Of a stretch of 64,000 bases of DNA, positions 9,175 through 30,997 are shown piece after piece. The position numbers were made by a program, and so were the translations under genes. This DNA is from Methylobacter tundripaludum SV96. Lineage in GTDB: Bacteria > Pseudomonadota > Gammaproteobacteria > Methylococcales > Methylomonadaceae. The notes under the pieces are model-generated. The model was not told where the DNA came from and did not search any database. It saw only the letters and a list, made by a program, of their open reading frames with translations. Position 1 is the first letter of the stretch, and every line of letters begins with the position of its first letter. The stretch lies in assembly GCF_000190755.2 (NCBI RefSeq), contig NZ_JH109152.1:1342167-1406166 (forward strand), read 5' to 3'.

Positions 9175-9177
9175 AAG

Positions 9178-12835: not shown

Positions 12836-12893
12836 TATGAGCTTCCTGATAGTTCTTTTCGCATAAATGAAAACATATTTAAAATATACAATG

Positions 12894-13748: not shown

Positions 13749-13763
13749 AATTTCTATTCACCT

Positions 13764-13973
13764 TTATTTTATAATTATATAACGCTTATTTCTAATAATA
13801 AAATGTAAGCCTTGTTGGATGGTATTAATAAGTTCATTACTGAGTAAAATAAAATGATCTAGAATACTATTACTTATAAAAAATTGTTTATTATGCCATT
13901 GACAAACAGTCCGCATTGGCATTAAAACTTGATCTTTTAGCATTCCTGTCATGCCATGTCTTATACTCAACAT
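13764..13973 (-). CDS. Small hypothetical protein (69 residues)
   Basis: I do not recognise this frame. It opens at an ATG, is AT-rich, encodes a basic, hydrophobic-rich peptide (central segment with LDHFILLSNELINTI), and ends 15 bases before the oxygenase start. No strong ribosome-binding site is evident. Its position fits a small gene co-transcribed with the oxygenase gene, but it may be a chance frame or the tail of a decayed gene. The 160 bases upstream (13974-14133) are very AT-rich and show no gene. Confidence 0.3.
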   Translation of the reverse strand: MLSIRHGMTGMLKDQVLMPMRTVCQWHNKQFFISNSILDHFILLSNELINTIQQGLHFIIRNKRYIIIK

Positions 13974-14133
13974 ACAGCAGAATGCCTAATATTTTTCCTT
14001 GATAAAAATCCCTGAGCAATACATATCATCATAAAGAAATAAACATAAGCCAACCTAACGAAAAATAGAAAACATTCACTTCCTAAAAATAACCGGGTAA
14101 TATATAAAATATACTTATGAAAAACATCTAAGT

Positions 14134-15288: not shown

Positions 15289-18200
15289 CTATCCCAATAA
15301 CCTCCCCCTGATCGAGGAGAGTATGGTTGTAGAAATGGCTTTATATGAGAATATTTTCTGTAACTGGCTTAGTGCTTTTTGAGCAACCTTATTACGCTCA
15401 TTTTCATTCTCAAGATAAAATTTAGTTTTATATAGAAAATCATCTTCGTCATCGTAAAGTACGGCCTGTTCGTCAGAAAAATAACTGGAAAGCGGCGAAC
15501 AATCATACTCATTTTTACGCGACAATATAAACGAACCCGATGCCATGATCTCTAAGGCTCTCATATGCAAAGTAACCCCTGGGCTAACATTCAAACATAT
15601 CCTGGCATTATTCATTATTCTGTTAATATATTCCCCATTATCAGCTACGCCTCTGGCGAATTTTTTAAACGCAGGGTAACGATCCCAGTTTTTTCCATAC
15701 AAATGAATATTGATATCCAATTGCGACTCAATTAGCAAGGAAACCGGCCAGGTTTTCATTTTGCTAAGGCATTCGCAATGCAGTCGACTTCCAGTCAAAG
15801 GAAACAAAACCTCCATAACCTGTGGCTCTAATACAATGTTCTTTTTATAAAAAACAGCATTAAAGTCATCTACAGTGATGTCACTAACGTCATATACGGA
15901 ATTTCCACCGCGCATTGTGCAAAACTTATTAAATTCGTTCATATTCAGAGAAGATAAGTGCTCATCCAAAATATGATAGAGTCCAACCAGATCGACTTCA
16001 GATATTGCTCCCGTATTAATAAGCTTCGTCTCGCTTTCATTTAATAGCAATTGAAACTGTTTCGGGTTTCTAATTGGATCGAACGTTCTCTCGGGTTCTT
16101 GCAAATGCGTTATCACCAACACATCGCAATCGTAATTTTTCTCTTCAAGAGGGAAATAAATTTTGTCATTATAGCCAAGCGGCAAAAACTCGATGGGGCT
16201 GTTTTTATATGTCGGAAACTCATTCAAACCCAACCATGCTTTGGCAAAAACAAAAGTAAAGTCTTTAGCCTTTAAAGCTTGTTTATTGCCGGTTATATTA
16301 GGCAACATATCCTGAATCCAATTTACAAAAGGAACAGATTCAGGCACGCCATCAAATTCATGACGAAAATGGTCAATCGTTAAGATAATATCCGGTTTAA
16401 AACGATTTATCTCATCGATAAAATGCTCAATACTACTCAGGTAATAATTTTCTTCTTCAATGCAGACGGTAGTCATAGCGCCGCTTCTATCAAAGCCGTC
16501 CATCAAATCACGCATACAATATTTCAGAAAACTCGAAAACCGGGATATAAACCCCATTACCCGTAGCGAAGCAATATTTTCGGCCTTGAATTTATCCCGC
16601 CATTCGGAGTCGGTTATTCGGCCATAATATTTATTGATTTCCTGTAAATTGGCGGCATGACGTTGATTGCGCTGCAGCTCGGCCCGATTAACAAACTCAA
16701 GCACTTGCCCGGCCTTTAAATCACCCTGCGCTTTCATATCCAGCAAAACGGTGGGCAATGCCGCTTGGTTTTTTTGTAGCTCCAGATAAAATCGATCTAT
16801 AGCGTTATCATAAAAAAACTGAATGCGTTTTGACGTGATTATCTGTTCCCAATCATGAAGCAGCATATTCAACACAAATAGTCCGAATTCCTGCTCTATT
16901 ATATAAACAGGCACCTCGAATTCCGCCATCTCCGGGATTGGCCGCTCGGTATTGTTAAAAGCCGCTAATAATTCATAACCGGAACCCAGGCTTAGCAATA
17001 CATAACAACTGGTATTTTCCCGCTGATAGTAAGTTGAATTATCACGAATAAGCCAGCAATTACCCAGTAACGCAACATTATCCAATTGGTAATAATTGTT
17101 GCCGTTTATAACTAAGGATACTTCCCAATATTCCGATTCGATTAATTTGTCGATCGCAATGTCGATCTTTTTACCTTGTATTCCCTCAATTAGTCGGTTA
17201 TATAATTCATGACGATTATTTTTTAAAATCGCCATGTTTTTTAGTAATCTATCCCGGCATGTCTGTATTGTGTTTGGCGTTCGACTATGCAAAATCACGT
17301 TATCGCCAAACAACTCAAATAAAACCGACTCAGTTTGGGTTGCAACCGCGTCGACGGCAGGGGAACTGATTAACGTCTTTATCGCCGATTTCTCAATAAA
17401 ATGATCGATTGCAGCATCGTAGGTAAAATGCTGCGCCAGCGCTATTGGCGATTTAGCTGGCCGCAAGCGGTTATCGATAATATTTTTTAAATCGTCTTCG
17501 GTTTTGAAGAACAGGCAATAATCGTCCCAATGCGGCTTTTCCGCGACATCCCGGCAATCGTAAACCACCGGAATACAGCCGCATGCAGCAACCTCGGCAA
17601 GACGCTGTGAGTTAATTTCAAACGGATGGGAAACAATCGCATAGGTCGCAGAACGATACACGTCGGCAACCTCGACGCCATGCACTAGCTCACCCCGAAA
17701 AAAAGGCGCAACCAGCGGTTCCTGATCCCAATAACGCCCGTAAATCTCCACCGGCAATGTTGAATGTTGACAAAGCCACTGTATCGAATAATCCCTGATC
17801 ACATAATGCAACAGCTTCCAAAATACAAATTCATAAGTCAAAGATGAGCGCTCAGCAATACGCGTTACCGTCTGCTCATCAAAACATCCGCCCCGATTTA
17901 ATATTTCAACCAACTGTGCAATGGCTTGCCGTTGCTGATCGTCAGCAACATCAACATTCGACAAGTAGGAAGTGCCGACAAAAATAATTTTCTGCTGCCG
18001 TTGCCGATTATCATCCGAATAAAAGATGTCTTCGTCGATGACAAAATGTTGGCGTTCCACGTTTTCGGCGCCGCACTGCTTAAGATACTGATCGAAAATC
18101 GGCGAAATGGAAAAATTAAAATCATTCTCCCGCCAGCTTAACAACTGTTGATTTTTTATTTCCGGCATCGGATCCTGCCACCAAACAATATTGATGACAT

Positions 18201-19149
18201 CGTCATGATAAAACGTGTTACGCAAGCTATTAATGTAGACGACGACATGCGGATTGAAATCGATAAATCTATTCAGGAAGTCGATGTAATTATGGACTTC
18301 CATATCATTCGCTTCGATATACAAGAAAACTTGATAGCCTCTTTTTTCAAATGCTTTCGCCAAGCCCTGGGAACAATACTGCATGACAGTTGTTAAGCGA
18401 CGACTAGGAATGGCTATCCGTATCGGTTCGCCATCAACAACGACCGGTTTTTGCGCTTTTACTTTTAGCGTTAATAGCTCGGTAATCTCCCGCCGTTTTT
18501 TATTGATGGCATCCATAGCATTGGTCACATCCTCCTGCAAAGCGAGTTTCAACTCTTCTTCCAAATCATAGGGCATTTCAACCTTTTCAGGCAGCCGCAG
18601 TTTGGATAGGGTAAAAAAGTCGACAAAATCATGTAACTCGACGTGAACCAGGTTTTCAATGCCATGCTCCGGCAACTCGCCCCGGTAATAACACACTTGC
18701 AGGCCGTCTATGGTTGGATGCTTGCAATAAACCCGGTTTTTTTGCTTTGCGGCATTGAGCGCCAATAAAGGGTCGATAAAATAGGTATCGACATGAATAG
18801 ATTCGTCTATCCTGTATTTACTGCGATATTGTTTAATTTCTTCAATAACATCGGCAGGCATCTCATTGAAATGCACTATGCCATCCTGGGAAATGGCAAT
18901 GACTTGCGGTATCGGCAACCGGTTATGCGAAAAAAACATCACAAAATCGTCAGCCGGTACCTGAACAAAATTATCCAGCACTATATCGCTTAACGGCCCA
19001 TCGTAATAACAATACGCTAAGCGCTCGCCGCCTTGTTCATCGACGATTTTATTTTGTTTTGCCGCTGCCGAATAAGCGTCTTCTATATTAAGGAAAAAAA
19101 TGTCCTTAACTGAATTATCTTGCCGATCTTCTCTGCCTGCTTGAACCAT
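15289..19149 (-). CDS. Double glycosyltransferase, 1286 residues (tandem copy A)
   Basis: Residues 1 to about 590 match the two neighbouring 606- and 605-residue proteins almost throughout. They contain two similar N-terminal modules (about 16-81 and 121-187, each ending in CYY.G.L, a DF(V).FF run and L.LP), a charged helical linker (about 190-240), and a glycosyltransferase domain with EIYGRYWDQ and HPFEINSQRLAEVAACGCIPV. After about residue 600 the sequence is unique to this copy: a linker and a second CgeB-like domain (LYGKNWDRY, RICLNVSPGVTLHMRALEIMASG). The protein therefore carries two putative catalytic domains, possibly adding two sugars in turn. Substrates are unknown. The fusion probably arose when the tandem array was formed or rearranged. 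Confidence 0.75.
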   Translation of the reverse strand: MVQAGREDRQDNSVKDIFFLNIEDAYSAAAKQNKIVDEQGGERLAYCYYDGPLSDIVLDNFVQVPADDFVMFFSHNRLPIPQVIAISQDGIVHFNEMPADVIEEIKQYRSKYRIDESIHVDTYFIDPLLALNAAKQKNRVYCKHPTIDGLQVCYYRGELPEHGIENLVHVELHDFVDFFTLSKLRLPEKVEMPYDLEEELKLALQEDVTNAMDAINKKRREITELLTLKVKAQKPVVVDGEPIRIAIPSRRLTTVMQYCSQGLAKAFEKRGYQVFLYIEANDMEVHNYIDFLNRFIDFNPHVVVYINSLRNTFYHDDVINIVWWQDPMPEIKNQQLLSWRENDFNFSISPIFDQYLKQCGAENVERQHFVIDEDIFYSDDNRQRQQKIIFVGTSYLSNVDVADDQQRQAIAQLVEILNRGGCFDEQTVTRIAERSSLTYEFVFWKLLHYVIRDYSIQWLCQHSTLPVEIYGRYWDQEPLVAPFFRGELVHGVEVADVYRSATYAIVSHPFEINSQRLAEVAACGCIPVVYDCRDVAEKPHWDDYCLFFKTEDDLKNIIDNRLRPAKSPIALAQHFTYDAAIDHFIEKSAIKTLISSPAVDAVATQTESVLFELFGDNVILHSRTPNTIQTCRDRLLKNMAILKNNRHELYNRLIEGIQGKKIDIAIDKLIESEYWEVSLVINGNNYYQLDNVALLGNCWLIRDNSTYYQRENTSCYVLLSLGSGYELLAAFNNTERPIPEMAEFEVPVYIIEQEFGLFVLNMLLHDWEQIITSKRIQFFYDNAIDRFYLELQKNQAALPTVLLDMKAQGDLKAGQVLEFVNRAELQRNQRHAANLQEINKYYGRITDSEWRDKFKAENIASLRVMGFISRFSSFLKYCMRDLMDGFDRSGAMTTVCIEEENYYLSSIEHFIDEINRFKPDIILTIDHFRHEFDGVPESVPFVNWIQDMLPNITGNKQALKAKDFTFVFAKAWLGLNEFPTYKNSPIEFLPLGYNDKIYFPLEEKNYDCDVLVITHLQEPERTFDPIRNPKQFQLLLNESETKLINTGAISEVDLVGLYHILDEHLSSLNMNEFNKFCTMRGGNSVYDVSDITVDDFNAVFYKKNIVLEPQVMEVLFPLTGSRLHCECLSKMKTWPVSLLIESQLDINIHLYGKNWDRYPAFKKFARGVADNGEYINRIMNNARICLNVSPGVTLHMRALEIMASGSFILSRKNEYDCSPLSSYFSDEQAVLYDDEDDFLYKTKFYLENENERNKVAQKALSQLQKIFSYKAISTTILSSIRGRLLG

Positions 19150-19371: not shown

Positions 19372-21192
19372 TCATGCCGAAACTTGACAGTCGCCGAACG
19401 CTGATTTACCGAGTAAGGACTTTAGCGCCGATTTCTCAATAAAATGGTCGACAGCCGCGTCGTAAGTAAAATTTTTCGCCAGCGCTATTGGCGATTTAGC
19501 GGGCCGCGAACGGTTATCGATAATATTTTTTAAATCGTCTTCGGTTTTGAAAAACAGGCAATAATCGTCCCAATGCGGCTTTTCCGCGACATCCCGGCAA
19601 TCGTAAACCACCGGAATACAGCCGCAGGCGGCAACCTCGGCAAGACGCTGGGAGTTAATTTCAAACGCATGGGAAACAATCGCATAAGTCGCCGAACGAT
19701 ACACATCGGCAACTTTATCACCATGTTGTAGCTCACCCCGAAAAAAAAGCGCAACCAATGAATCCTGCCCCCAATAACGACCGTAAATTTCTACCGGCAA
19801 TGTTGAATGCTGACAAAGCCACCTTACCGGATAATCCCTGATCACATAAAATAGCAACTTCCAAAACACAAACTCATAAGTCAAAGATGAGCGCTCAGCA
19901 ATACGCGTTACCGTCTGTTGATCAAAACACCCGCCCCGATTTAATATTTCAACCAACTGTGCAATGGCTTGCTGTTGCTGATTGTTATCGAAGTCAACTT
20001 GCGTCAAATAAGAAGTGCCGACAAAAACAATTTTCTGCTGCCGTTGCCGATTATCATCCGAATAAAAAATGTCTTCATCGATAACAAAGTGCTGGCGTTC
20101 CACGTTTTCGGCGCCGCACTGCTTAAGATACCGATCAAAAATCGGCGAAACAGAAAAATTAAAATCATTCTGCCGCCAGTTTAACAACTGTTGGTTTTTT
20201 ATTTCCGAGATCGGATCCTGCCACCAAATAATATTGATGACATCGTCATGATAAAAAGTGTTACGCAAGCTGTTGATATAGACGACGACATGCGGATTGA
20301 AATCGATAAATCTATTCAGAAAGTCGATGTAATTATGGACTTCCATATCATTCGCTTCGATATAAAAGAGAACTTGGCAGCCTCTTTTTTCAAATGCTTT
20401 CGCCACACCCTGGGAACAATATTGCATGACAGTTGTTAAGCGACGACTAGGAATGGCTATCCGTATCGGTTCGCCGTCAACAACGACCGGTTTTTGCGCT
20501 TTTGCCTTTTGAGTTAATTGCTCAATAAGCGCGACCCGCTTTTTAGTGATCGCATCCAGAGCATTCGCCATATCCTCTCGTACAGCGCGTTTTAACTCGT
20601 CTTCCAAATCATCGGGCATTTCAACCATTTCAGGCAGCCGCAGTTTGGATAGGGTAAAAAACTCGACCAGATCATGTAATTCGACGTGAACCAGATTTTC
20701 AATGCCATGCTCCGGCAACTCGCCCCGGTAATAACACACTTGCAGGCCGTCTATGGTCGGATGCTTGCAATAAACCCGGTTTCTTTGCTTTGCGGCATTG
20801 AGCGCCAATAAAGGGTCGATAAAATAGGTATCGACATGAATAGATTCGTCTATCCTGTATTTACTGCGATATTGTTTAATTTCTTCAATAACATCGGCAG
20901 GCATCTCATTGAAATGCACTATGCCATCCTGGGAAATGGCAATGACTTGCGGTATCGGCAACCGGTTATGCGAAAAAAACATCACAAAATCATCAGCCGG
21001 CACCTGGACAAAATTATCCAGCACTATATCGGTTAACGGCCCATCGTAATAACAATACGGTAAGCGCTCGCCGCCTTGTTTATCGACGATTTTATTTTGT
21101 TTTGCCGCTGCCAAATAAGCGTCTTCTATATTAAGGAAAAAAATATCCTTAACTGAATTATCTTGCCGATCTTCTCTGTCCGCTTGAACCAT
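19372..21192 (-). CDS. Glycosyltransferase, 606 residues (tandem copy B)
   Basis: Same architecture as the first half of copy A: two N-terminal repeat modules, helical linker, and a C-terminal glycosyltransferase domain with EIYGRYWGQD and FEINSQRLAEVAACGCIPVVYDCRD split across short segments. It is intact, with a normal stop after a short CQVSA tail shared with copy C. In the first hundred residues it differs from copy A at only about five positions, while the linker and the last 30 residues are closer to copy C, so it looks like a recombination mosaic. The wide 222-base spacer before copy A may allow separate regulation or simply be duplication scar. Donor and acceptor unknown. Confidence 0.78.
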   Translation of the reverse strand: MVQADREDRQDNSVKDIFFLNIEDAYLAAAKQNKIVDKQGGERLPYCYYDGPLTDIVLDNFVQVPADDFVMFFSHNRLPIPQVIAISQDGIVHFNEMPADVIEEIKQYRSKYRIDESIHVDTYFIDPLLALNAAKQRNRVYCKHPTIDGLQVCYYRGELPEHGIENLVHVELHDLVEFFTLSKLRLPEMVEMPDDLEDELKRAVREDMANALDAITKKRVALIEQLTQKAKAQKPVVVDGEPIRIAIPSRRLTTVMQYCSQGVAKAFEKRGCQVLFYIEANDMEVHNYIDFLNRFIDFNPHVVVYINSLRNTFYHDDVINIIWWQDPISEIKNQQLLNWRQNDFNFSVSPIFDRYLKQCGAENVERQHFVIDEDIFYSDDNRQRQQKIVFVGTSYLTQVDFDNNQQQQAIAQLVEILNRGGCFDQQTVTRIAERSSLTYEFVFWKLLFYVIRDYPVRWLCQHSTLPVEIYGRYWGQDSLVALFFRGELQHGDKVADVYRSATYAIVSHAFEINSQRLAEVAACGCIPVVYDCRDVAEKPHWDDYCLFFKTEDDLKNIIDNRSRPAKSPIALAKNFTYDAAVDHFIEKSALKSLLGKSAFGDCQVSA

Positions 21193-21414: not shown

Positions 21415-23232
21415 TCATGCCGAGACTTGACAGTCGCCGAACGCTGGTTTACCGAGTAAGGCCTTTAGCGCCGATTTCTCAATAAAATGGTCGACAGCGG
21501 CATCGTAAGTAAAATTTTTCGCCAGCACTATTGGCGATTTAGCGGGCCGCAAGCGGTTATCGATAATATTTTTTAAATCATCCTCGGTTTTGAAAAACAG
21601 GCAATAATCGTCCCAATGCGGCTTTTCCGCGACATCCCGGCAATCGTAAACCACCGGAATACAGCCGCAGGCGGCAACCTCGGCAAGACGCTGGGAATTG
21701 ATTTCACACGGGTGGGAAACAACCGCATAAGTCGCAGAACGATAGGCCTCAGCTACTTCAACGCCATGCACTAGCTCCCCCCTAAAAAAGGGTGCAACTA
21801 GCGGATCCTGATCCCAATAACGTCCGTAAATCTCCACCGGCAAGGCGGAATTCCGACACAGCCACTTTATCGAATAATCCCTGACCACGTAATGCAACAA
21901 CTCCCAAAACACAAACTCATAAGTCAAAGATGAACGTTCGGCGACACTTGTTACCGTCTGCTCATCAAAACGTCCGCCCCGATTTAATATTCCAACCAAT
22001 TCTGCAATGACTTGCTGTACCCAATCATCAGAAAAATCAATCCGCATCAAATAGGAAGTACCGACAAAAATAATTTTCTGTTGCCGTTGCCGATTATCAT
22101 CCGAATAAAAGACTTCTTCATCAATGACAAAAAGTTGGCGTTCCACCGTGCCTGCCCCGCACTGCTTAAGATACTGATCATAAATCGGCGAGATAGAAAA
22201 ATTAAAATCATTCTGCCGCCAGTTTAACAAAACTTGGTTTTTTATTTGCGGCATCGAATCCTGCCACCAAATAATATTGATAACATCGTCATGAAAAAAA
22301 TTGTTAAACAAGGCATTAACACAAAATACAGCATGCGGATTGAAGTCGATAAACTGACTAAGACAATCAATATGATTATTGATTTCCATGTCATTCGCTT
22401 CGATATAAAAGAGAACTTGGCAGCCTCTTTTTTCAAATGCTTTCGCCACACCTCGGGAACAGTACTGCATAACTGTTGTGAAACGGCTGGTATGAATAAC
22501 TATCCGTATCGGTTCGCCGTCAACAATAACCGGTTTTTGCGCTTTTGCCTTTTGAGTTAATTGCTCAATAAGTGCCGCCCGCTTTTTAATGATGTCATTC
22601 AGGGCATTCGCCACATCCTCCCGCACAGCGCGTTTTAACTCGTCTTCCAATTCATCGGGTATTTCAAGCATTTCAGGCAACCGAAGTTTGGATAGGATAA
22701 AAAACTCGACCAGATCATGTAATTCGACGTGAACCAAGTTTTTGATACTATGCTCCGGCAACTCGCCCCGGTAATAACACAGTTGCAGGCCGTCTATGGT
22801 CGGATGCTTGCAATAAACCCGGTTTCTTTGCTTTGCGACATTAAGTGCCAATAAAGGATCGACAAAATAAGTATCGAAATGAATATATCCGGCTAAGTAT
22901 TTAGTTCGATATTGTTTAACTTCCTCGATAACATCGGCAGGCATCTCATTAAAATGCACTACACCATCCTGGGAAATGGCAATGATTTGCGGTACCGGCA
23001 ACCGGTTATGCGAAAAAAACTTAATAAAATCGTCAGCCGGCACCTGAATAAAATTATCCAGCACTATATCGGTTAACAATCCGTCATAATAGCAATACTG
23101 TAAGCGCTCGCCGCCTTGTTCATCGACGATTTTATTTTGTTTTGCCGCTTCCGAATAAGCGTCTTCTATATTAAGGAAAAAGATGTCCTTAACTAAGTTG
23201 ACTTGCCGATTTTCTTCGCTTCCCTGAGTCAT
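21415..23232 (-). CDS. Glycosyltransferase, 605 residues (tandem copy C)
   Basis: The most divergent of the three tandem copies, differing from A at about one in five of the first hundred residues but with the same layout: N-terminal module pair, linker, and C-terminal group-1-like domain (EIYGRYWDQ, INSQRLAEVAACGCIPV). It lies only 12 bases after the radical SAM gene stop, without the long spacer seen before A and B, so this is likely the ancestral arrangement. It is intact. Function as a glycosyltransferase is inferred from the C-terminal domain; the N-terminal modules are of unknown role, perhaps acceptor binding. Confidence 0.78.
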   Translation of the reverse strand: MTQGSEENRQVNLVKDIFFLNIEDAYSEAAKQNKIVDEQGGERLQYCYYDGLLTDIVLDNFIQVPADDFIKFFSHNRLPVPQIIAISQDGVVHFNEMPADVIEEVKQYRTKYLAGYIHFDTYFVDPLLALNVAKQRNRVYCKHPTIDGLQLCYYRGELPEHSIKNLVHVELHDLVEFFILSKLRLPEMLEIPDELEDELKRAVREDVANALNDIIKKRAALIEQLTQKAKAQKPVIVDGEPIRIVIHTSRFTTVMQYCSRGVAKAFEKRGCQVLFYIEANDMEINNHIDCLSQFIDFNPHAVFCVNALFNNFFHDDVINIIWWQDSMPQIKNQVLLNWRQNDFNFSISPIYDQYLKQCGAGTVERQLFVIDEEVFYSDDNRQRQQKIIFVGTSYLMRIDFSDDWVQQVIAELVGILNRGGRFDEQTVTSVAERSSLTYEFVFWELLHYVVRDYSIKWLCRNSALPVEIYGRYWDQDPLVAPFFRGELVHGVEVAEAYRSATYAVVSHPCEINSQRLAEVAACGCIPVVYDCRDVAEKPHWDDYCLFFKTEDDLKNIIDNRLRPAKSPIVLAKNFTYDAAVDHFIEKSALKALLGKPAFGDCQVSA

Positions 23233-23244: not shown

Positions 23245-24639
23245 TTAAATGAAATTAATGTGCTCAGGCGGGTTTTTTAAATCCCACAGGAATTTGTTGA
23301 CATAATCCTGCCGACAGCCAATCGCGCAATCCTTATGCACATCCACCGATTCGGAGACATCCTTATGCACCTGCCAGTAACGCTCGCCATGGGTAATCAA
23401 ATCGTATAAGGAATCCTGATGTAAATCGCCGATATAAAAGCGTTCTTTATTAAAGAAAGGCCCACAGGGATAGATTTTGCCATTGCCGGAAATTTGCAAT
23501 AAAAACGGCGTACCGAAACATTGATCGTATTTTCGGTAACCGTCTTTATACAGATTGGTTTCACCGGCAGCGTTGATTTTGTTCCATTTCACCTGCACAA
23601 CATAATTGTCGTTGCTGAATTTTTCGGCCTGTTTCAAAACATCGCCGATTTTCAAATAAGCGTCATAATCGATGCCTATTTCCTTGTATTCGGAATCCGA
23701 GCACTGCTTGATCACGAAATAATCCACACCCAATTCGGCGCCCAATTCGGCTTCCGCCAATACCTCATCGAAACATTCGGGGATCAGCACCATTTGCAAG
23801 CCCAGCGTGCATTTGTAGTTATTTGCCTTTTTAATTTTCACCAGCTCCCGGATGTTATCGATCAACAAGCGGAAGTTGTTTTCGCTGGACTGATGCACGC
23901 GGCGAAAGCCTTCCGGTGTACCTGCGGACAGATTGAAACGAATATAGCTCATGTTTTTCAGCAAATCGTGCGCCCTGTCCATATCCAACAACAGGCCGTT
24001 GGTGGCCATCGAGGTATCGATACCGAACTCGGCGGCCAGCACCGTGGCATCGTAAAGAGCGGGATTGAGCGTGGGTTCGCCATCACCGATAAAGCCCAGC
24101 GACTTAACCCCGAGCTTGCCGCAATCCTCAATGAATTGCAGTAGCGCTTCGCGGCCGATCATGGTGCCTTTGGTCATGTTCTGCACGACTGCATAGCAGT
24201 ACAGACAGGCCGTATTGCAGAATTTGGTCAACCCCATGTCGATATGCACAGGCGCGAAACGCTGACCGTTTTGCCAGGCCTGAATTCGATCCAGGTGATG
24301 AAGCATTTTATGACCGTCGAAACGGAAACGTTCCTTCTGGGTTCGGAAGCTGGGCCCGGTAAATTGATTCGGCACCGATTTATCATACTCACTATTTTCT
24401 TCCAGTCTAACAATGCCCTGCTGGTCATCATGCACAACGGTTTCCAGCTTCTGACCCGGCAGCTTAGTCAGCTGACTGGTGTCGATCACCTGGTATTGGC
24501 TGTTCGGCAAGGCACTGCGGTCAACAATCCGGTTGGAGGTGCGTAACTTGTGCCCAGGCTGGCTGAACATTGGAACGTTATCGGGTATTGAGGTTACAAC
24601 GGAGTTGCCGAAACGGTTGGTTGGGTCGTCTTTAGCCAT
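23245..24639 (-). CDS. Radical SAM/SPASM protein (464 residues)
   Basis: The cluster motif CNTACLYC is at residues 141-148 (C141, C145, C148), after a long 130-residue N-terminal extension of unknown function. The barrel shows GFIGDGEPTLNPALY, SMATNGLLL and RFNLSAGT. A C-terminal SPASM-like domain follows (CFGT, GKIYPCGPF, GDLHQDSLYDL, then CAIGC), able to hold further iron-sulfur clusters. The protein ends in HINFI, a tail shared with the radical SAM protein at 29897-30997. It lies 23 bases after the E1 beta gene and 12 before glycosyltransferase copy C. The reaction is unknown; sugar or peptide modification in glycan assembly is possible. Confidence 0.82.
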   Translation of the reverse strand: MAKDDPTNRFGNSVVTSIPDNVPMFSQPGHKLRTSNRIVDRSALPNSQYQVIDTSQLTKLPGQKLETVVHDDQQGIVRLEENSEYDKSVPNQFTGPSFRTQKERFRFDGHKMLHHLDRIQAWQNGQRFAPVHIDMGLTKFCNTACLYCYAVVQNMTKGTMIGREALLQFIEDCGKLGVKSLGFIGDGEPTLNPALYDATVLAAEFGIDTSMATNGLLLDMDRAHDLLKNMSYIRFNLSAGTPEGFRRVHQSSENNFRLLIDNIRELVKIKKANNYKCTLGLQMVLIPECFDEVLAEAELGAELGVDYFVIKQCSDSEYKEIGIDYDAYLKIGDVLKQAEKFSNDNYVVQVKWNKINAAGETNLYKDGYRKYDQCFGTPFLLQISGNGKIYPCGPFFNKERFYIGDLHQDSLYDLITHGERYWQVHKDVSESVDVHKDCAIGCRQDYVNKFLWDLKNPPEHINFI

Positions 24640-24662
24640 GATCTAATATTTTTCTCTGTTAG

Positions 24663-25733
24663 TTAAAAAGGACCGGCGAAACTGCGGTCAGGCAAGTCTT
24701 TTGCCAAATCGGATTGCAATTCCATTGTTACTATCTGTTTTAGCGGCTGTTTATCCAACATCTCCAGCACCGCAGCCGCGATTTCTTCCGCACCGGGATA
24801 ATAATGATTGGCCATAAAGTGTGAGGTCGGCACCGGGTGATTGGGATAGGCGATCAACCGCGGCGGTTGTCGCAAATGTTGTCCATGCGACTGAAACAGT
24901 TCGGAGAGCAGCTTATGCGCCATCGACGCTGTTTCCGGCGCACAATCCGCCACCAGCAACAAACCGGTCTTGCTGATTGACCGGGCAACGCTATCGACAT
25001 CCAGCGGCGTCAGACAGCGCATGTCTACCACCTCGGCATCGACGCCGTGTTTTGCCAACACGGTCGCCGCTTTCAGCGCTTCTATACTCATGTGCGAAAA
25101 CGCCGCCAGGGTAATATCGCCGCCTTGCCGCAACAGCGCCGCGCCGGTCAACGCAGTGCGCGGGCTATTTTTATCGACCTCGCCTTGGATATGGTGTAAC
25201 CAGCGATGCTCAATATACAGTACCGGATTATTATCGGCGATAGCGTCCAGCATGAAGTGATAAGCATCGCCCGCTGTAGTCGGCATCACCACTTTTAAGC
25301 CCGGCACTTGCGCAAACATGGCTTGCAAACTCTGCGAATGCTGCGGTCCCTGCCCCCAACCGCGACCGACGATGACTCTGATCACTAGCGGCACCTGCTG
25401 CTGTCCGTCGAACATGTAACGCCACTTGGCGGCGTTGTTAACCAATTGATCGACCGACAGCAAGGCAAAATCGATGCGCTGATGCACCAGCACCGGCCGC
25501 ATACCGGCCAGCGCCGCACCGATGCAGATACCGGTCATGCCGTTTTCGGCCAACGGCATGTCCAATACCCGCTCCGCGCCGTACTTCTCGCGCAAACCCT
25601 GGGTGGTGGCAAAAATGGTTTTCGGGTCCGGTACGCCTTCGCCGATCAGGATCATCTCAGGATATTGGGTCAAGCCATCATCCAAAGCTTCGCGTATCGC
25701 CTCGCCATAACTCATTACCGTAACATCACGCAT
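24663..25733 (-). CDS. Thiamine-diphosphate 2-oxoacid dehydrogenase E1 beta-like subunit
   Basis: About 356 residues of the transketolase-like E1 beta family (pyrimidine-binding and C-terminal transketolase domains). Signals are MSYGEAIREAL, GEGVPDPKTIF, MPLAENGMTGICIGAALAG, GRGWGQGPQHSQ and VVDMRCLTPLDVDS. The ATG at 25733 lies inside the end of the alpha gene (8-base overlap), so the subunits are translated together. No E2 or E3 gene is nearby, which argues against a full dehydrogenase complex. In a sugar cluster the pair may instead transfer a two-carbon unit to a sugar carbonyl; that is inference. Confidence 0.83.
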   Translation of the reverse strand: MRDVTVMSYGEAIREALDDGLTQYPEMILIGEGVPDPKTIFATTQGLREKYGAERVLDMPLAENGMTGICIGAALAGMRPVLVHQRIDFALLSVDQLVNNAAKWRYMFDGQQQVPLVIRVIVGRGWGQGPQHSQSLQAMFAQVPGLKVVMPTTAGDAYHFMLDAIADNNPVLYIEHRWLHHIQGEVDKNSPRTALTGAALLRQGGDITLAAFSHMSIEALKAATVLAKHGVDAEVVDMRCLTPLDVDSVARSISKTGLLLVADCAPETASMAHKLLSELFQSHGQHLRQPPRLIAYPNHPVPTSHFMANHYYPGAEEIAAAVLEMLDKQPLKQIVTMELQSDLAKDLPDRSFAGPF

Positions 25734-26802
25734 ACAGATGCAGCCCCATGCTGTCGATAGATGGACGACTGCCTCGCAGCGCCCACTGAAAAGCCTGTTC
25801 AATTTCATCGGCAAGCGACGCTTCCATTGCCGTCAGCTCCGACTCGTCGCTTAACCGCTTATCCAGCAAAGCCTGCCTCGTTTGCAACAAGGGACAACGC
25901 AGCTTCCAGTCCGCCAGTTCGCCCGGACTGCGATAGCCCAGCTCATCGTCTTCGTTGGGTCCGCAATGTTCCGGCCAGCGGTGCGTGTGCAATTCCAGGA
26001 ACTGCGGCCCTTGCCCGGTACGGGCATTGGCAACGGCGGCTTGCGCCAGTGCATACACCTGTTCAACGCTGTTGCCGTCGCCACTGGCAGCCTGTAAGCC
26101 GTGAGCGGCCGCTATCTTATAAATGTCGCGCTCGGGCTGGCGTTCCGCTAACGGCGTCATCACCGAATATTGATTGTTTTCGCAAACAAACAGCAACGGC
26201 AATTTTTTCAACGCTGCAAAATTCATGGTTTCGTGCATCACGCCTTCTTCAAAACAGCCGTCGCCGAAAAAAATCACCACCACATTGGTCGCTTCCGGCG
26301 TCCTCGGCTCTGGCCTCCTGCTTCGCTCTACCTCCTCCATCCATGGAGTCGTGCCTCCCGCGACACTGGCACATCCCTGTGCGGCGCCGGATTTTTTCAT
26401 CTGTTCGGCCCAGGCATAACCGCCCGCCAATGGCACGGTACCGCCGACTATCGGCGTGGATGCGATAAACCCGGCGGCCAAATCGGTCAAATGCATCGAG
26501 CCTCCGCGACCGCCGCAGCAACCCTCGGCAAAACCGTACAACTCGGCAAGCAATCGACGCAAATCGCCGCCCTTGGCCAAATAATGACCATGCCCCCGAT
26601 GGTTGCTGAACACTTTGTCTTGCGTCGTCAAATGCGCGCTGATGCCGACCGCGATGGCTTCTTCGCCGATACAAAGATGAGTCGGGCAGCGCATTTCCTG
26701 CTGCTGATAACGTTCGGCAATCGCCTGTTCGACTCGGCGAATACGGAGCATTTGGTAGTAGAGTTGCTTTAAATCGGCACCGGCTGAGTTCATGGCAGTC
26801 AT
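25726..26802 (-). CDS. Thiamine-diphosphate 2-oxoacid dehydrogenase E1 alpha-like subunit with in-frame insertion
   Basis: A 358-residue E1 alpha. Visible are THLCIGEEAIAVG, SNHRGHGHYLAKG, GRGGSMHL and the thiamine-diphosphate motif GDG (180-182) to NN (209-210). Residues about 140-171, just before NVVVIFFGDG, are an Arg/Glu/Pro-rich stretch that the family lacks; the DNA there is exactly 96 bases and looks like an inserted element. The frame is preserved, so a protein can still be made, with an extra loop before the cofactor site. The start overlaps the HldE-like gene stop by ATGA. Partner is the beta subunit encoded immediately downstream. Confidence 0.83.
   Translation of the reverse strand: MTAMNSAGADLKQLYYQMLRIRRVEQAIAERYQQQEMRCPTHLCIGEEAIAVGISAHLTTQDKVFSNHRGHGHYLAKGGDLRRLLAELYGFAEGCCGGRGGSMHLTDLAAGFIASTPIVGGTVPLAGGYAWAEQMKKSGAAQGCASVAGGTTPWMEEVERSRRPEPRTPEATNVVVIFFGDGCFEEGVMHETMNFAALKKLPLLFVCENNQYSVMTPLAERQPERDIYKIAAAHGLQAASGDGNSVEQVYALAQAAVANARTGQGPQFLELHTHRWPEHCGPNEDDELGYRSPGELADWKLRCPLLQTRQALLDKRLSDESELTAMEASLADEIEQAFQWALRGSRPSIDSMGLHLYA
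26290..26385. repeat. 96-bp in-frame insert inside the E1 alpha gene
   Basis: Encodes about 32 residues absent from normal E1 alpha proteins, between MKKSG and TNVVVIFFGDG. It contains a CCATGG palindrome at its centre and purine-rich/pyrimidine-rich arms, unlike the flanking gene. Length divisible by three keeps the frame. It could be a small repetitive element; other copies cannot be seen in this window. Confidence 0.5.
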
Positions 26803-28319
26803 TTCAACAAGGTGGTGATGTATTTGAACAAGGCGACCGCCCTGACCGGCTCGCGGTTGCAGACAATCTGCACATCCAGCGCCGCGGCAACGCTACCGGC
26901 AAACAAGGCCTGCTCCGGCTCCAAACCGCCGGCCAGACACAGTCCGGCTACCGATAAAAACGCATCGCCGGCCCCTATTCTGTCCACCACTTGCGAGGAC
27001 AGCGCCGGAATTTTATAAGCGGTTTTGTCATTATCCAGCATCAATGCGCCTTTGGTGCCTCGGGTAATCGCGACATGCTTGGCTTGCAGCTTGTCGGCCA
27101 ATTGCCCGGCAAGTTCCTCAATCGCGCCGTTTCTGTCATGCACCGCCAGCCGTAATTCCGGCTCGTTTAGCGATAAGAAATCGGCATTGGGGTAACGGGT
27201 AATCAGATGGTAACCGCGATTGCCGCTATTGACCTGGGCATTCACCGCCAGGTATTTCGCGCCTTTAGCCAGCGCCTCCACCATTTCATTAGAGATGAAG
27301 CCGTTGCCGAAATCGGGCACGATCACCGCGTCGTAGTCGCCAAGATGCCGATCCAGCCAAGCGACGATCTTGCCGTTGGTTTCCTCGGGTAGCGGCGCAT
27401 CGTTATAGAAATACACTTCAAACAGCTTGGCGATGTCGGCATCGACATAGCGGCGCTTGACGATGGTTGGTCGATCCTGGCTGAAGAAAAATACCGGTTC
27501 GATGGCCGGGTTCAGATTGCTGCGGATAAAATCCTCATGACTTTGGGTCGCACCCAAGCCGGTCAGCAAAGTCACATTACCGGCAAATTCGGCGACATGA
27601 TTGGCCACCGCAATTGCGCCGCCGGCAAAACGTTCATAATCGTTGTATTTGACTGCGAACACATTGCCCTTGCCGGTCTGGCCCAGCGGCGAGGTGTAAT
27701 GATATTCGTCGATGATCGCTTCGCCGACCACCAGCACCTTGAGTCCGCTTAAGCCTTTCAACTTGCCGATAATGTCCGCACCCCCAACCGTTCCCTTGAA
27801 TTGATCGAGATAGGCGGAAATTTCCGGCGAAAACACCTCGAAATATTCGTTCAGCAGGCGGGTCGAGCTGGAGGTCAGCTCATCGGTAAATAAAATCCGG
27901 CCTCCGTGACGTTCAACGGCGTCTTTTTCATGCTGGATATTGCCGGTGATGTCGTCGCTGGTGCTTTTGTAGTCGCTGCCTTTCACATACAGATCGGGTT
28001 TGACCTGATCCAGCACCTCGACCGCAGTCACTGCATGATTAATCGCCACTCGGTCGACACAGGCCAACGCGGCGATGTTTTCGGCGCGCAGATGTTCGTT
28101 GAACACCGGTCGTCCCGGCCCTTTGTTGACGAACTCGTCGGCGGTAACGCTGACCAGCAAGCTGTCTGCCTGCCTGGATCCGCTTTGCAAATGGCGGATA
28201 TGGCCGATGTGCAACAGATCGAAAGTGCCGTGACACAAGGCCACGGTTTTGCCTTGGGCTTTTAACTCGGCGGAACGTTGCGCCAGTTGATCAATAGATA
28301 CGATTTTTTCCGTGGACAT
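26799..28319 (-). CDS. Bifunctional HldE-like protein with nucleotidyltransferase first and PfkB kinase second
   Basis: A 506-residue fusion. Residues about 25-150 are a cytidylyltransferase-like domain (CHGTFDLLHIGH with H37 and H40, VKGSDYK, TDELTSSST), as in the adenylyltransferase half of HldE. Residues about 180-506 are a PfkB/ribokinase-type kinase (VVGEAIIDEY, RFAGGAIAVANHV, DRIGAGDAF at about 447-455). In classical HldE the kinase comes first, so the order here is reversed. It probably phosphorylates and activates a heptose-like sugar phosphate, using the GmhA-like product from the next gene upstream. It lies 6 bases after that gene and overlaps the E1 alpha start by four. Confidence 0.85.
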   Translation of the reverse strand: MSTEKIVSIDQLAQRSAELKAQGKTVALCHGTFDLLHIGHIRHLQSGSRQADSLLVSVTADEFVNKGPGRPVFNEHLRAENIAALACVDRVAINHAVTAVEVLDQVKPDLYVKGSDYKSTSDDITGNIQHEKDAVERHGGRILFTDELTSSSTRLLNEYFEVFSPEISAYLDQFKGTVGGADIIGKLKGLSGLKVLVVGEAIIDEYHYTSPLGQTGKGNVFAVKYNDYERFAGGAIAVANHVAEFAGNVTLLTGLGATQSHEDFIRSNLNPAIEPVFFFSQDRPTIVKRRYVDADIAKLFEVYFYNDAPLPEETNGKIVAWLDRHLGDYDAVIVPDFGNGFISNEMVEALAKGAKYLAVNAQVNSGNRGYHLITRYPNADFLSLNEPELRLAVHDRNGAIEELAGQLADKLQAKHVAITRGTKGALMLDNDKTAYKIPALSSQVVDRIGAGDAFLSVAGLCLAGGLEPEQALFAGSVAAALDVQIVCNREPVRAVALFKYITTLLK

Positions 28320-28325
28320 TTAACA

Positions 28326-28889
28326 TTAGTTCCTGATGAGATGATCGGTAATATGGTGCAACACGAACAAATGCCCCAGCTCGACCATGCCGTAATGGTC
28401 GCTGTCCAGCCAGCAGTTCCAACGCCCCAACTTGCGGAGCGGATTATCGGCCTTAAAACCGCTCAGCGTCATAACCGCCAGACCTTTGGCATTGGCGGCC
28501 TGCACGGCATTGATAATGTTCAGCGATTGCCCGGAGCTGCTGATAGCAATCAGTAAATCGTCGGCATTGGCAAAGGCGGCGATTTGTTTGGCGAAGGCCT
28601 GCTCGTAACCGAAATCGTTGGTAAAACAGGTCAACGGCGCTGCTTCGTGCAAGGTCAATGCGCACAAACCGCCGACATTGCGCAGGTCGGTAATCACATG
28701 ACTGGCAATCGCCGCGCTGCCGCCGTTACCCAGTACCATAATCTTGGCCTGCTGTTCGCGCACTCTGGCTAACTCGGCCAGCATCTGTTGAATCACCGCT
28801 TCGCCGTCCAGCGTTTGTCCCTGGTGATCGGTAAAAATGCTGTTCGTCAGCAACTGTGCGAATTGTGACGCCGCTTGTCCTATAGCCAT
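28326..28889 (-). CDS. SIS-domain phosphoheptose isomerase, GmhA-like
   Basis: A 187-residue SIS-fold protein. GNGGSAAIASHVITDL and ISSSGQSLNI are the phosphosugar-binding loops, and ELGHLFVLHHITDHL carries the glutamate and histidine of the C-terminal metal/active site. It should isomerise sedoheptulose 7-phosphate to a manno-heptose 7-phosphate or a related sugar. AAGGAGG precedes the ATG. Together with the HldE-like fusion it makes a near-complete NDP-heptose route; a GmhB-type phosphatase is not visible in the window. Confidence 0.85.
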   Translation of the reverse strand: MAIGQAASQFAQLLTNSIFTDHQGQTLDGEAVIQQMLAELARVREQQAKIMVLGNGGSAAIASHVITDLRNVGGLCALTLHEAAPLTCFTNDFGYEQAFAKQIAAFANADDLLIAISSSGQSLNIINAVQAANAKGLAVMTLSGFKADNPLRKLGRWNCWLDSDHYGMVELGHLFVLHHITDHLIRN

Positions 28890-28900
28890 CTGCCGCCTCC

Positions 28901-29887
28901 TTATTTGTCGAGATATTTAAACCAATCGGCCGTGGCATCGGCGATCGAAGCCGAAGTCCACAGCGGCGCGTTTTCCCAGTAATCGATATGGGCCATCATG
29001 TTAGCGACGCCCTGCTCGAAACTGACTTGCGGTTGCCAGTCCAATTTTTCCTTGATCTTGCCGGTATCGGCAAAGGTGCAATCCGGCTCGCCTGGCCGCT
29101 TGGGAATGTATTCGATAGCGCCGCCCAGAAGTCCGACCAGATGGTTAACGCTGTAAGTGCCGCCGCTGCCGACGTTCATGATTTCGCCGCAAATATCCGA
29201 GTTGGCCGCTGCGATAAACGCATTGGCGACATCGGTAACGTAGGTAAAGTCGCGGGTTTGCGTGCCGTCACCCACCACGGTAAACGGCTTGTTGTTGATC
29301 TTTTGCGCCAAAAACACCCCGAACACTGCACCATAAGCCCCGGTAGTGCGCGCATGAGGGCCATAGACGTTGAACAACCGCAGCGACACGACCGGCAGTT
29401 GATACAGCTGCGCCCAATGCATCACCAATTCCTCGCCCAGATATTTGGTCAGCGCATAAGGATATTGCGGTTTGATGGCGGCGGTTTCAGGCGTAGGAAA
29501 TTGCTCGGCCAGTCCATAGCAGGACGACGATGCGGCATAGACGAAGCGCTTGACGTTAGCGTCCCGTGCCGCTTCCAGCACGTTAAACGTGCCGCTGACA
29601 TTGGTTTCGTAATAGGCGCGCGGTCGCTCGATAGACGGCACGATGTCGGCCAAACCGGCCAGATGAAACACCCAATCGACATCGGCGAATAACGGCATGA
29701 TCGCTTCGGCATCGCGGATGTCGAGTTGGTGAAACTCAAAGTTGGGCTGATCGAGCAGGTCGGCGATAGTCTCCTTGCGGCCTCCTGAAAGATTATCGAT
29801 CACCTTTATTTCGTGACCTTGCCGCCACAATTCGCGACTTAAATGGCTGCCGATAAAGCCCGCACCGCCTGTAACCAGTACTTTCAT
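28901..29887 (-). CDS. NAD-dependent epimerase/dehydratase of the UDP-glucose 4-epimerase type
   Basis: A 328-residue extended short-chain dehydrogenase: VTGGAGFIGSHL at the N-terminus, YAASSSCYG and YPYALTKYLGEEL (YxxxK) at the active site, RLFNVYGP and GDGTQTRDFTYV as further family marks. The ATG at 29887 follows AGGTGGGG; a GTG nine bases earlier in the same frame is less likely. It lies nine bases after the radical SAM stop and 11 before the GmhA-like gene. It may act on the NDP-heptose-like product of its neighbours; a standard hexose epimerase is the alternative. Confidence 0.82.
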   Translation of the reverse strand: MKVLVTGGAGFIGSHLSRELWRQGHEIKVIDNLSGGRKETIADLLDQPNFEFHQLDIRDAEAIMPLFADVDWVFHLAGLADIVPSIERPRAYYETNVSGTFNVLEAARDANVKRFVYAASSSCYGLAEQFPTPETAAIKPQYPYALTKYLGEELVMHWAQLYQLPVVSLRLFNVYGPHARTTGAYGAVFGVFLAQKINNKPFTVVGDGTQTRDFTYVTDVANAFIAAANSDICGEIMNVGSGGTYSVNHLVGLLGGAIEYIPKRPGEPDCTFADTGKIKEKLDWQPQVSFEQGVANMMAHIDYWENAPLWTSASIADATADWFKYLDK

Positions 29888-29896
29888 GTTCCCCAC

Positions 29897-30997
29897 CTAG
29901 ATAAAGTTGATATGGGCAGGTTGCTGCGCCGTTAATTTGTCGAGATATTGATTGACCGCTTCCATCCGGCAATTTTTACGGCATTGGCCTATGTCCAGTT
30001 CCTGGGTGATGTATTGCCAGTTTTGCTGTCTTTTCTCGCCTTCCCAGATTTCTTGGAACGACTGTTGATGGATATTGCCGTAAGCGAAGCGTTTATCGGT
30101 CAGATAGGCGCTGCAACCGTAAACTTCGCCGTCGGCCATAATGTAGGCCCAGAAATACGGGGTGGCGTGACAGGTTTTATAGCGTTCAGTCTCGGATGTG
30201 GAATAGTTTTTCATACTCTGTTCGCGAAAAATCACGTTAAAGCTGTCGCTGTTGAATGTTTCCAGCTCTTCGGCCATACCCAGCAGATTGTCGTAACGCA
30301 GGCTTTCGTAGCGGCGGGTTTCGCTGGACAGATGCTGGGAATAGGGTTTGACCACCAGATAATCCAGGCCGATGTCGCGGCAGATGGCCGCCAGCGCCGT
30401 CACTTCCTCCCGGTTTTCCGGGAGCAGCAGGATTTGCGCGCCCAGAGTGCATGACAATTGCTCGGCTTTTTTATGAGCGACGGCCCGGCGCAGATTGTTC
30501 AGCACCAAATCGAAGTCCGAAGCTTTGGTCTGATGAATCGCGGCATAATTCTCGGCGCTGCCGGCATTCAAGGACACCTTGATCCACGACACCAACGGCA
30601 GCGACTGCTCGACAAAACGCGAGTTCATCAAGGTGCCGTTAGTGGTGAAGGAGACGTCAATGCCGGCGTCGACGGTCAGCCTGACGATCTCGTTGATCTC
30701 CTTATGCAACATCGGTTCGCCTTCACCGGCGTACATGATGCTCTTAACGCCCAACCGGCCCATTTCGGCCAGACGATCGGCCAGAATTTTTACGTCCAGC
30801 CGTTGCGCCTTGTAGCCGATATAATCGACCGCGCAAAATGTGCAACGGTGATTGCAGGCGCCGACCGGCGATACCTCCATATAGATGGGATACACGGCTT
30901 TGGCGTGCTGCCAGTCGTGCTTACTGTCCAACCACTGCGCCACTCGCTGCGGGTGATACACCAGTTTGTGGCTGTCTACGCCGTAATTATCTGCCAT
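29897..30997 (-). CDS. Radical SAM/SPASM protein (366 residues)
   Basis: The cluster motif CNHRCTFC is at residues 48-55 (C48, C52, C55). The barrel has MYAGEGEPMLHKE, SFTTNGTLM and WIKVSLNAG; a SPASM-like domain follows (CHATPYFWAYI, GEVYGC, YGNIHQQSFQEIWEG, CRKNC). It ends in HINFI, like the longer radical SAM protein at 23245-24639, but lacks that protein's 100-residue N-terminal extension. It is the first gene of the long minus-strand run; I see no confident promoter in 30998-31174. Its substrate is unknown; a sugar intermediate of this cluster is the obvious candidate. Confidence 0.83.
   Translation of the reverse strand: MADNYGVDSHKLVYHPQRVAQWLDSKHDWQHAKAVYPIYMEVSPVGACNHRCTFCAVDYIGYKAQRLDVKILADRLAEMGRLGVKSIMYAGEGEPMLHKEINEIVRLTVDAGIDVSFTTNGTLMNSRFVEQSLPLVSWIKVSLNAGSAENYAAIHQTKASDFDLVLNNLRRAVAHKKAEQLSCTLGAQILLLPENREEVTALAAICRDIGLDYLVVKPYSQHLSSETRRYESLRYDNLLGMAEELETFNSDSFNVIFREQSMKNYSTSETERYKTCHATPYFWAYIMADGEVYGCSAYLTDKRFAYGNIHQQSFQEIWEGEKRQQNWQYITQELDIGQCRKNCRMEAVNQYLDKLTAQQPAHINFI

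Follow-up and report, generated by a model that had tools for sequence, protein, structure and literature searches.

Several described pathways move two-carbon (C2) units with enzymes that depend on thiamine diphosphate (ThDP), and they are the closest relatives of the seven-gene operon examined here, which lies in a 64,000-nucleotide stretch of the Methylobacter tundripaludum SV96 genome (contig NZ_JH109152.1, positions 1,342,167 to 1,406,166; hereafter the window). In the available part of a review (PMC12247030), two-subunit αKADH2 enzymes put an acetyl branch on keto sugars, one of them having been assayed in vitro with pyruvate and ketones. These pairs, among them KbDH-α/β of kibdelomycin and that of aldgamycin, are, like the pair encoded in our operon, two-subunit E1-type ThDP enzymes in a sugar pathway. 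The accessible text of two further papers (PMC4425429, PMC10338323) assigns or proposes E1-like pairs for the branched sugars of paulomycin (Pau11/Pau12), avilamycin (AviB1/AviB2) and everninomicin (EvdU5/EvdS3). Split transketolases proposed to add a hydroxyacetyl unit number 13 in the available part of PMC12247030, all from Streptomycetes and none characterised in vitro. Those proposed for miharamycin and amipurimycin, and Rif15 of rifamycin, likewise have two subunits and transfer C2 units within a biosynthetic cluster, the two-subunit rifamycin enzyme moving its unit to rifamycin S (PMC6002545, in the portion available). YerE of the yersiniose A pathway is also a ThDP enzyme, putting an acetyl branch on a nucleotide keto sugar of a surface glycan, lipopolysaccharide (PMC12247030, same portion), but it belongs to the decarboxylase-type ThDP superfamily.

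Two other described systems bear on the operon. With the canonical GmhA/HldE pathway to ADP-heptose it shares, by domain homology, the isomerase, kinase and nucleotidyltransferase activities, but it differs in the swapped domain order of its HldE, which is an additional copy, in scores far under the equivalog cut-offs, and in its E1 and radical SAM partners. Loci that combine flagellin glycosylation with Maf and nonulosonic acid genes are a known kind of island; ours resembles them in that flagellin, FlaG, FliD, FliS, FliT, NeuB and a PF01973 protein, probably Maf, adjoin the window, and goes beyond them through a second pathway for sugar synthesis that includes the E1 pair and the radical SAM proteins. 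Unlike the αKADH2 systems, the cassette sits in a flagellin/surface-glycan island, is tied to a swapped HldE and a GmhA-like isomerase, and has no clear 4,6-dehydratase among its seven genes. Unlike the split transketolases in the available part of PMC12247030, those found here replace the E1 pair beside the swapped HldE in many phyla. No description of this gene set was found among the open-licence papers listed, a search for an azoxyalkene precedent gave nothing useful, and we rate the operon as a case of known enzyme types in a new pathway setting.

The proposal that we moderately favour is that the seven genes form one dedicated sugar-nucleotide pathway for a flagellin glycan, with the E1 pair adding a C2 unit. 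On the minus strand, from 30997 to 23245, they encode a radical SAM/SPASM protein (rSAM1), an epimerase, a GmhA-like isomerase, the swapped HldE, E1α, E1β and a second radical SAM/SPASM protein (rSAM2) (Table 1). A preliminary description, made from the sequence alone, had recognised these enzyme types in seven tightly packed genes, several overlapping, ahead of three glycosyltransferase genes. That layout is borne out: junctions range from an 8-base overlap to a 23-base gap, all seven proteins exceed the gathering scores of their Pfam families, and the three downstream genes are present, the first and third being Glyco_trans_1_2 by Pfam, with 12 bases between rSAM2 and the nearest. The gene calls were amended in that the likelier start of E1β is the ATG at 25733 rather than 25814, that E1α contains an in-frame repeat and that the operon is part of a larger glycan island. 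None of the seven proteins reached an NCBIfam equivalog cut-off among the best 25 families per protein, and a promoter and terminator scan was uninformative (17 promoter-like sites versus 24.6 in shuffles; 23 terminator-like versus 21.4).

The seven-gene order is intact in all nine close relatives fetched, and the ratio of nonsynonymous to synonymous substitution rates is 0.03–0.16 in 13 gene comparisons (seven genes with L016 and six, without the epimerase, with L022), with synonymous sites near saturation; order and ratios together argue that the cassette is not a chance assembly. The swapped HldE is matched at E ≤ 1e-30 in 11 of 151 genomes of the order, ten of which (own genome included) match at 85% or more and belong to one family, while the eleventh (L015/L025) matches at about 28–29% and its L025 locus is without the cassette. 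Only three of the nine same-genus genomes listed, own included, have the swapped HldE, so the cassette comes and goes. As for the repeat, a 99-base query finds at least 41 matching places in the own genome, itself included (40 of 110 candidates scored). Among relatives it is present in L018, which is of the same genus, is matched by shorter inserts in L016 and L019 and is absent from L022, and the insert loop (residues 142–169) is predicted to be disordered, its predicted local distance difference test score (pLDDT) being mostly under 50.

The E1 pair is central to this proposal. E1α and E1β are separate subunits encoded by adjacent overlapping genes (Pfam E1_dh; Transket_pyr/Transketolase_C). 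In an alignment of 17 E1α rows GD and NN are invariant, the third position of GD[GA] being G or A, and E1β aligns across its Glu and His regions with 1um9 and 3duf; we take these residues to be ThDP-binding or catalytic. Such intact-looking catalytic residues, together with best NCBIfam names of pyruvate dehydrogenase (PDH) E1 alpha and beta, would also suit an ordinary 2-oxo acid dehydrogenase E1 whose E2 and E3 are encoded elsewhere, and the nearest solved chains are human PDH E1α for E1α and E1 beta subunits of 2-oxo acid dehydrogenases for E1β. The scores, however, fall under the PDH cut-offs: E1α has 268 of the 394 bits of the PDH E1 alpha equivalog, and E1β 251 of 321 bits with a subfamily model and 233 of 454 with an equivalog model. 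Family PF00676 occurs at four places in the own genome, namely the cassette E1α, a 958-aa frame by one E2 gene and two weak matches; from size and context, the 958-aa frame is probably SucA-like and the weak matches probably transketolase- and DXS-sized proteins. There are two E2 genes, one after AceE (1506 bits) and one adjoining the SucA-like gene, which leaves the cassette pair with no visible E2: no third E2 was found in the genome, and no E2 or E3 in the operon (E3 elsewhere lay outside the search). The preliminary description had raised the prospect of a standard complex encoded elsewhere, and no such partner was seen. On the evidence of the E2 genes and AceE we reject the ordinary dehydrogenase E1, which we regard as very improbable.

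Phylogeny and a short motif also bear on the nature of the cassette E1α. In a tree of 39 E1α rows, including 20 outgroup rows taken from the better E1α profile matches, 16 of the 20 outgroup rows form one clade (support 100/99) and 13 of the 18 cluster rows another (97/88), and the linkage of the cluster type is to hldE, both of which argue against an ordinary E1. Placed elsewhere are five cluster rows, the outgroup rows L201, L205, L207 and L216, and a Streptomyces plasmid row. All 18 cluster E1αs, the Streptomyces plasmid row and L216 carry H[CV]GP where four outgroup rows carry GHSMSDP, 15 outgroup rows fitting neither search pattern; the loop at this position presumably contacts E2 in PDH. 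Of the 25 top-scoring E1α places in the phylum, 11 fall within open frames of at least 690 aa, which we read as alpha-beta fusions. The plasmid row comes from Streptomyces griseofuscus (L165:13998–16044), in which the E1 alpha/beta genes with H[CV]GP lie in a non-sugar setting, by condensation-domain, acyl-carrier and regulator genes.

The second line of evidence, and the one that extends the finding beyond the close family, is the genomic linkage of the swapped HldE with either an E1 pair or a split transketolase, which is well supported. In a phylum sample of 398 genomes, the swapped HldE is present in 50 at E ≤ 1e-30 and in 49 at 400 bits or more. Profiles for E1α and for the N subunit of the split transketolase (TktN), run on the same genomes with cut-offs of 380 and 370 bits, respectively, find the E1α type in 22, the TktN type in 32 and both in 4. 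One type or the other occurs in 47 of the 49 swapped-hldE genomes (all except G295 and G307) versus 3 of the 349 others (G306, G315 and G319). Best scores per genome leave a gap from 431 to 375 bits for E1α and a small one, from 376 to 357, for TktN. The linkage is also local, a ThDP gene lying on hldE's contig at 25 of 51 hldE places and within 5 kb in 23 of those 25. Among the matches listed in a scan of named genomes, 80 loci were considered, of which 45 (L075–L119) encode the swapped HldE and 35 (L120–L154), being partial matches, served as controls; in the DNA fetched, E1α and/or TktN was found at 35 of the 45 (E1α at 12, TktN at 21, both at 2 and neither at 10) versus none of the 35 controls. 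The profiles do recognise more ordinary relatives, since the E1α profile recovers all 20 ordinary E1αs fetched, and the transketolase-like gene of the own genome is picked up with the TktN profile (185 bits). These listed loci come from gamma-, beta-, alpha- and deltaproteobacteria, Magnetococcales, Elusimicrobia, Omnitrophota, Planctomycetota, Verrucomicrobia, Nitrospirae, Gemmatimonadetes, Anaerolineales and Bdellovibrionaceae, mostly as metagenome bins, and those in Nanoarchaeota and Parcubacteria bins may be binning errors.

A comparison of 67 full-length loci (the 45 named loci, the window, L025 and 20 phylum loci picked for contig size and variety, with the nine close relatives left out) shows how the two versions differ. 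Sixteen are of the E1 type, 30 of the split transketolase type, 2 of both and 19 of neither. An APH-family kinase, a name that agrees with one RefSeq annotation, is found at none of the 16 E1 loci and 20 of the 30 transketolase loci, and a HAD-like protein, so named from our reading of its sequence, at none of 16 and 17 of 30, which suggests that a phosphorylated intermediate matters in the transketolase version. GmhA-like isomerases occur at 9 of 16 E1 and 14 of 30 transketolase loci, radical SAM proteins at 10 and 8, and epimerases at 13 and 25. The preliminary description named a lack of co-occurrence in other genomes as a ground for refutation, and this was not the outcome: the association recurs in relatives, other families and other phyla, though all seven are found together only in the close family and at 5 of the 15 E1-type loci outside it (L055, L059, L075, L109 and L116, the epimerase of L116 being only 31% identical).

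The locus is also found on plasmids, as the E1 type in Azospirillum oryzae and the transketolase type in Solidesulfovibrio carbinolicus. A plasmid search returned hldE in two records at E ≤ 1e-40 and E1α in one at E ≤ 1e-60, a limit too tight for the E1α on one of the two hldE plasmids. None of 50,697 phage records had a swapped HldE at E ≤ 1e-20. Two recurrent neighbourhoods were also seen. A transketolase version with the APH kinase, the HAD-like protein, two epimerases and paired DegT genes is alike in three Bradyrhizobium loci (L081, L087 and L112) and in L069–L071, a fourth Bradyrhizobium locus (L088) being incomplete. Bradyrhizose is part of Bradyrhizobium O-antigens and its genes were called unknown in 2016 in the available text of PMC4743980; the word "transketolase" had no match in that text. 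A protein that we read from its sequence as deoxyhypusine synthase-like, with no family search, lies near the swapped HldE at L089, L091, L092, L099, L100, L102, L111, L116, L118, L163 and L228, loci that are deltaproteobacterial, Nitrospirota and others.

The enzymes around the E1 pair point to an activated sugar. The swapped HldE has its CTP_transf_like domain at residues 29–137 and its PfkB domain at 194–484, the reverse of the canonical order, and reaches 173 of the 521 bits of the NCBIfam HldE cut-off. Its nearest solved structures are a heptose-7-phosphate kinase (4e84) for the kinase part and ethanolamine-phosphate cytidylyltransferases (3elb, 5x9q) for the N-terminal part, so either CTP or ATP is possible as the nucleotide donor. 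A canonical HldE is encoded elsewhere in the own genome at 673 bits, which makes the swapped copy an extra one; for this reason a duplicate of the canonical heptose pathway is not favoured. The GmhA-like protein has phosphoheptose isomerases as nearest solved chains (1.3e-17) and scores 87 of 209 bits with NCBIfam gmhA. Copies of the epimerase, 56–67% identical, lie at 27 of 66 hldE loci outside the close family, and it has no PDB match at 1e-50, a limit too strict to mean much. On the other side of the alternation, TktN and its partner TktC at L064 have a split transketolase (6yak/6yaj) as nearest solved structure.

The two radical SAM/SPASM proteins are paralogues, about 28–32% identical, and the three cysteines of the radical SAM motif CxxxCxxC are invariant in all 12 rSAM1 and 7 rSAM2 rows. 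rSAM2-like proteins, 35–74% identical, are present at 8 of the 15 E1-type loci outside the close family. What these proteins act on can be read in two ways. They might act on a peptide or a protein, possibly flagellin or a maturase target, the sugar genes then being a separate neighbouring function: their best NCBIfam names are maturases, far under the cut-off, and a Foldseek search with the AlphaFold2 model of rSAM1 (pLDDT 75.7) places the peptide maturases SuiB and SkfB right behind DesII. That search, however, also brings up sugar enzymes, DesII in first place, which is only a hint at a root-mean-square deviation of about 9 and 17% identity, and BlsE in 13th; by sequence the best solved match of rSAM1 is BlsE (6e-9), followed by 8wm2, 7wzv and then DesII (7e-4). 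Moreover, rSAM1 orthologues 56–62% identical are found at the hldE loci of other families, of E1 and transketolase type alike, which argues against an unrelated neighbour. We therefore consider a peptide or protein target improbable, and the predicted model and sequence neighbours of rSAM1 lean towards a sugar as its substrate. In a third radical SAM/SPASM protein of the island (window 8059–9174) the SPASM domain precedes the radical SAM domain, opposite to the order in rSAM1 and rSAM2.

Within the proposed pathway, the GmhA-like isomerase and the swapped HldE would convert a ketose phosphate to an activated sugar of heptose-like type. The E1 pair, having no E2 or E3, would act as an acyl-anion transferase of the sugar-branching αKADH2 type, decarboxylating a 2-oxo acid (pyruvate in the simplest case) on ThDP and passing the two-carbon unit to a sugar carbonyl; the split transketolase would perform the equivalent step in other lineages, with hydroxyacetyl as the unit added. 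The epimerase and the two radical SAM/SPASM enzymes would adjust stereochemistry or oxidation state, and the downstream glycosyltransferases would place the product on flagellin or on a nonulosonic acid added by Maf. The alternation of E1 and split transketolase beside the swapped HldE, together with the antibiotic precedents for both, makes C2 transfer the simplest common reading. The preliminary proposal that the E1 pair adds a C2 unit and the radical SAM proteins tailor the product is partly supported: the transfer fits the alternation, and what accepts the unit, what is formed and what the radical SAM proteins catalyse stay putative; that description lacked the flagellin context, the transketolase alternative and the antibiotic-pathway precedents for branching.

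The timing and geometry of the transfer could differ from this scheme. The ThDP enzyme, either E1 with hydroxypyruvate or the split transketolase, might extend the chain before activation, making a long ketose phosphate that the GmhA-like protein isomerises and HldE activates to an octose or another long, linear sugar. Products of a transketolase are of the type on which a GmhA-like isomerase naturally acts, the two ThDP enzymes are interchangeable at the locus, and the APH kinase and HAD-like protein are frequent at transketolase loci. Aldose-ketose isomerases cannot make an aldose from a 1-deoxyketose, however, and a 1-deoxyketose is what E1 would form from pyruvate; furthermore, the own genome encodes a transketolase-like protein (669-aa frame) that could already supply sedoheptulose 7-phosphate, and the E1-type sugar enzymes in the available part of PMC12247030 add branches. 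We judge chain extension unlikely, although it is the most plausible of the alternatives. Still less likely is that the E1 pair makes an acyl or acyloin block that decorates the sugar, for example as an amide or ester, and contributes no sugar carbon. The island does contain methyltransferases, DegT aminotransferases, a carbamoyltransferase and a PhyH oxygenase, paired DegT genes occur at the E1 loci L078, L091, L097, L118 and L164, and the Streptomyces plasmid pair sits with condensation-domain and acyl-carrier genes and not with sugar genes, but in the cassette the pair is tied to HldE, and the split transketolase that replaces it makes no free acyl donor.

Several observations weigh against C2 addition in a dedicated flagellin-glycan pathway. 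The sugar acceptor is a guess, as no clear 4,6-dehydratase or 4-dehydrogenase is present among the seven to supply a stable keto sugar; none of the seven proteins reaches a dehydratase cut-off of NCBIfam, and the epimerase-family short-chain dehydrogenase/reductase (SDR) and the two radical SAM proteins could oxidise a sugar. The linkage counts depend on the cut-offs (E1α/TktN, in bits): the strictest, 400/400, leave 38 of the 49 hldE genomes versus 2 of the 349 others, 380/350 give 47 versus 7, 360/340 give 47 versus 17, and the loosest, 351/302, give 47 versus 33. Both subfamily profiles were derived from hldE neighbours, with 3–6 candidates scored per genome, and as the genomes are also related, the Fisher value of 6e-55 overstates the association and is no true probability. 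For 26 of the 51 hldE places the ThDP gene is missing or sits on a different contig, the assemblies being fragmented, and 10 of the 45 named loci have neither ThDP type nearby, several being short-flanked but L100 and L106 not. At E1 loci, the fetched DNA contains no GmhA-like gene in 7 of 16 cases and no epimerase in 3. Cluster E1αs span more than one clade, so that the tree gives no single origin for the cluster type. Finally, outside the family the locus is mostly distant from flagellin.

We read the operon as part of a larger flagellin-glycosylation island, in which flagellin and the probable Maf lie by sugar and transferase genes. The flagellin gene is about 3 kb beyond the left edge of the window, 30 kb away from the swapped hldE, and all the flagellar genes named above, NeuB and the probable Maf are within about 9 kb of that edge. 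From left to right, this adjoining stretch (L196) encodes an 838-aa PF01973 protein (MptE-like in Pfam), which by its sequence is probably the flagellin glycosyltransferase Maf, then FliT, FliS, FliD, FlaG, flagellin, a CBS-nucleotidyltransferase, a hexapeptide transferase, NeuB, one gene outside the search and a DegT gene running into the window. Ten open reading frames searched in the window (2244–15285) are SDRs, glycosyltransferases, methyltransferases, a carbamoyltransferase, the third SPASM/radical SAM protein, a DegT aminotransferase and a PhyH oxygenase. In the family genomes with the cassette, flagellin and hldE share a contig in 8 of 10, lying 12.5 to 43 kb apart in seven and 386 kb apart in G115. 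Among the matches listed for 20 other genomes, they are about 9 kb apart in G251 and G313 and 56 kb in G214, and distant or on other contigs in the others listed. A link with flagella is thus a feature of this family and not of the pathway as a whole. The glycosyltransferase genes directly downstream of the operon arose recently as tandem copies that repeat every 2043 bases or so and are 89–97% identical over the 300-base stretches compared; one is fused to a second glycosyltransferase module, and layout and copy number differ among relatives.

Table 1. Features of the operon and of the glycosyltransferase genes downstream, in window coordinates
Feature	Position	Strand	Length	Basis
rSAM1, radical SAM/SPASM protein	29897..30997	-	366 aa	Pfam PF04055+PF13186
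Epimerase, NAD-dependent epimerase/dehydratase family	28901..29896	-	331 aa	Pfam PF01370
GmhA-like sugar-phosphate isomerase, SIS domain	28326..28889	-	187 aa	Pfam SIS_2
Domain-swapped HldE, N-terminal nucleotidyltransferase and C-terminal PfkB kinase	26799..28319	-	506 aa	Pfam domain order
E1α, ThDP-dependent E1-type subunit	25726..26802	-	358 aa including in-frame repeat insert	Pfam E1_dh 190.7 bits
Interspersed repeat, in frame within E1α	26290..26388	-	99-base query	Copies elsewhere in own genome
E1β, transketolase-like pyrimidine-binding and C-terminal domains	24663..25733	-	about 356 aa	Pfam PF02779+PF02780 (Transket_pyr+Transketolase_C)
rSAM2, second radical SAM/SPASM protein, extended N terminus	23245..24639	-	464 aa	Pfam Radical_SAM+SPASM
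Glycosyltransferase, Glyco_trans_1_2, tandem copy 3	21415..23232	-	605 aa	Pfam and tandem repeat
Glycosyltransferase, tandem copy 2	19372..21192	-	606 aa	Tandem repeat (Pfam run on copies 1 and 3 only)
Large glycosyltransferase, first half is tandem copy 1	15289..19149	-	1286 aa	Pfam Glyco_trans_1_2, 2 stretches, and tandem repeat

More broadly, we tentatively entertain, somewhat short of thinking it probable, that these loci make a widespread and undescribed class of bacterial surface sugars, namely swapped-HldE heptoses branched or lengthened by C2 transfer (acetyl via E1, hydroxyacetyl via the split transketolase) and altered by radical SAM enzymes, which would be flagellar in methanotrophs and part of other surface glycans elsewhere; PF02461, the family of particulate methane/ammonia monooxygenases, is matched twice in the own genome, from which we take the organism to be a gammaproteobacterial methanotroph. 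Sugar branching by E1-type enzymes and split transketolases is reviewed mainly for antibiotic pathways in the available part of PMC12247030, and here both are linked to one nucleotidyltransferase-kinase family, in a flagellar glycan island and at loci of many phyla. If the proposal is true, the transketolase branching reaction, uncharacterised according to the same portion of that review, would come within reach of direct assay, the swapped HldE together with E1 or a split transketolase would be a sequence handle for finding such sugars, and higher sugars modified with a C2 unit would be general on the surfaces of bacteria.

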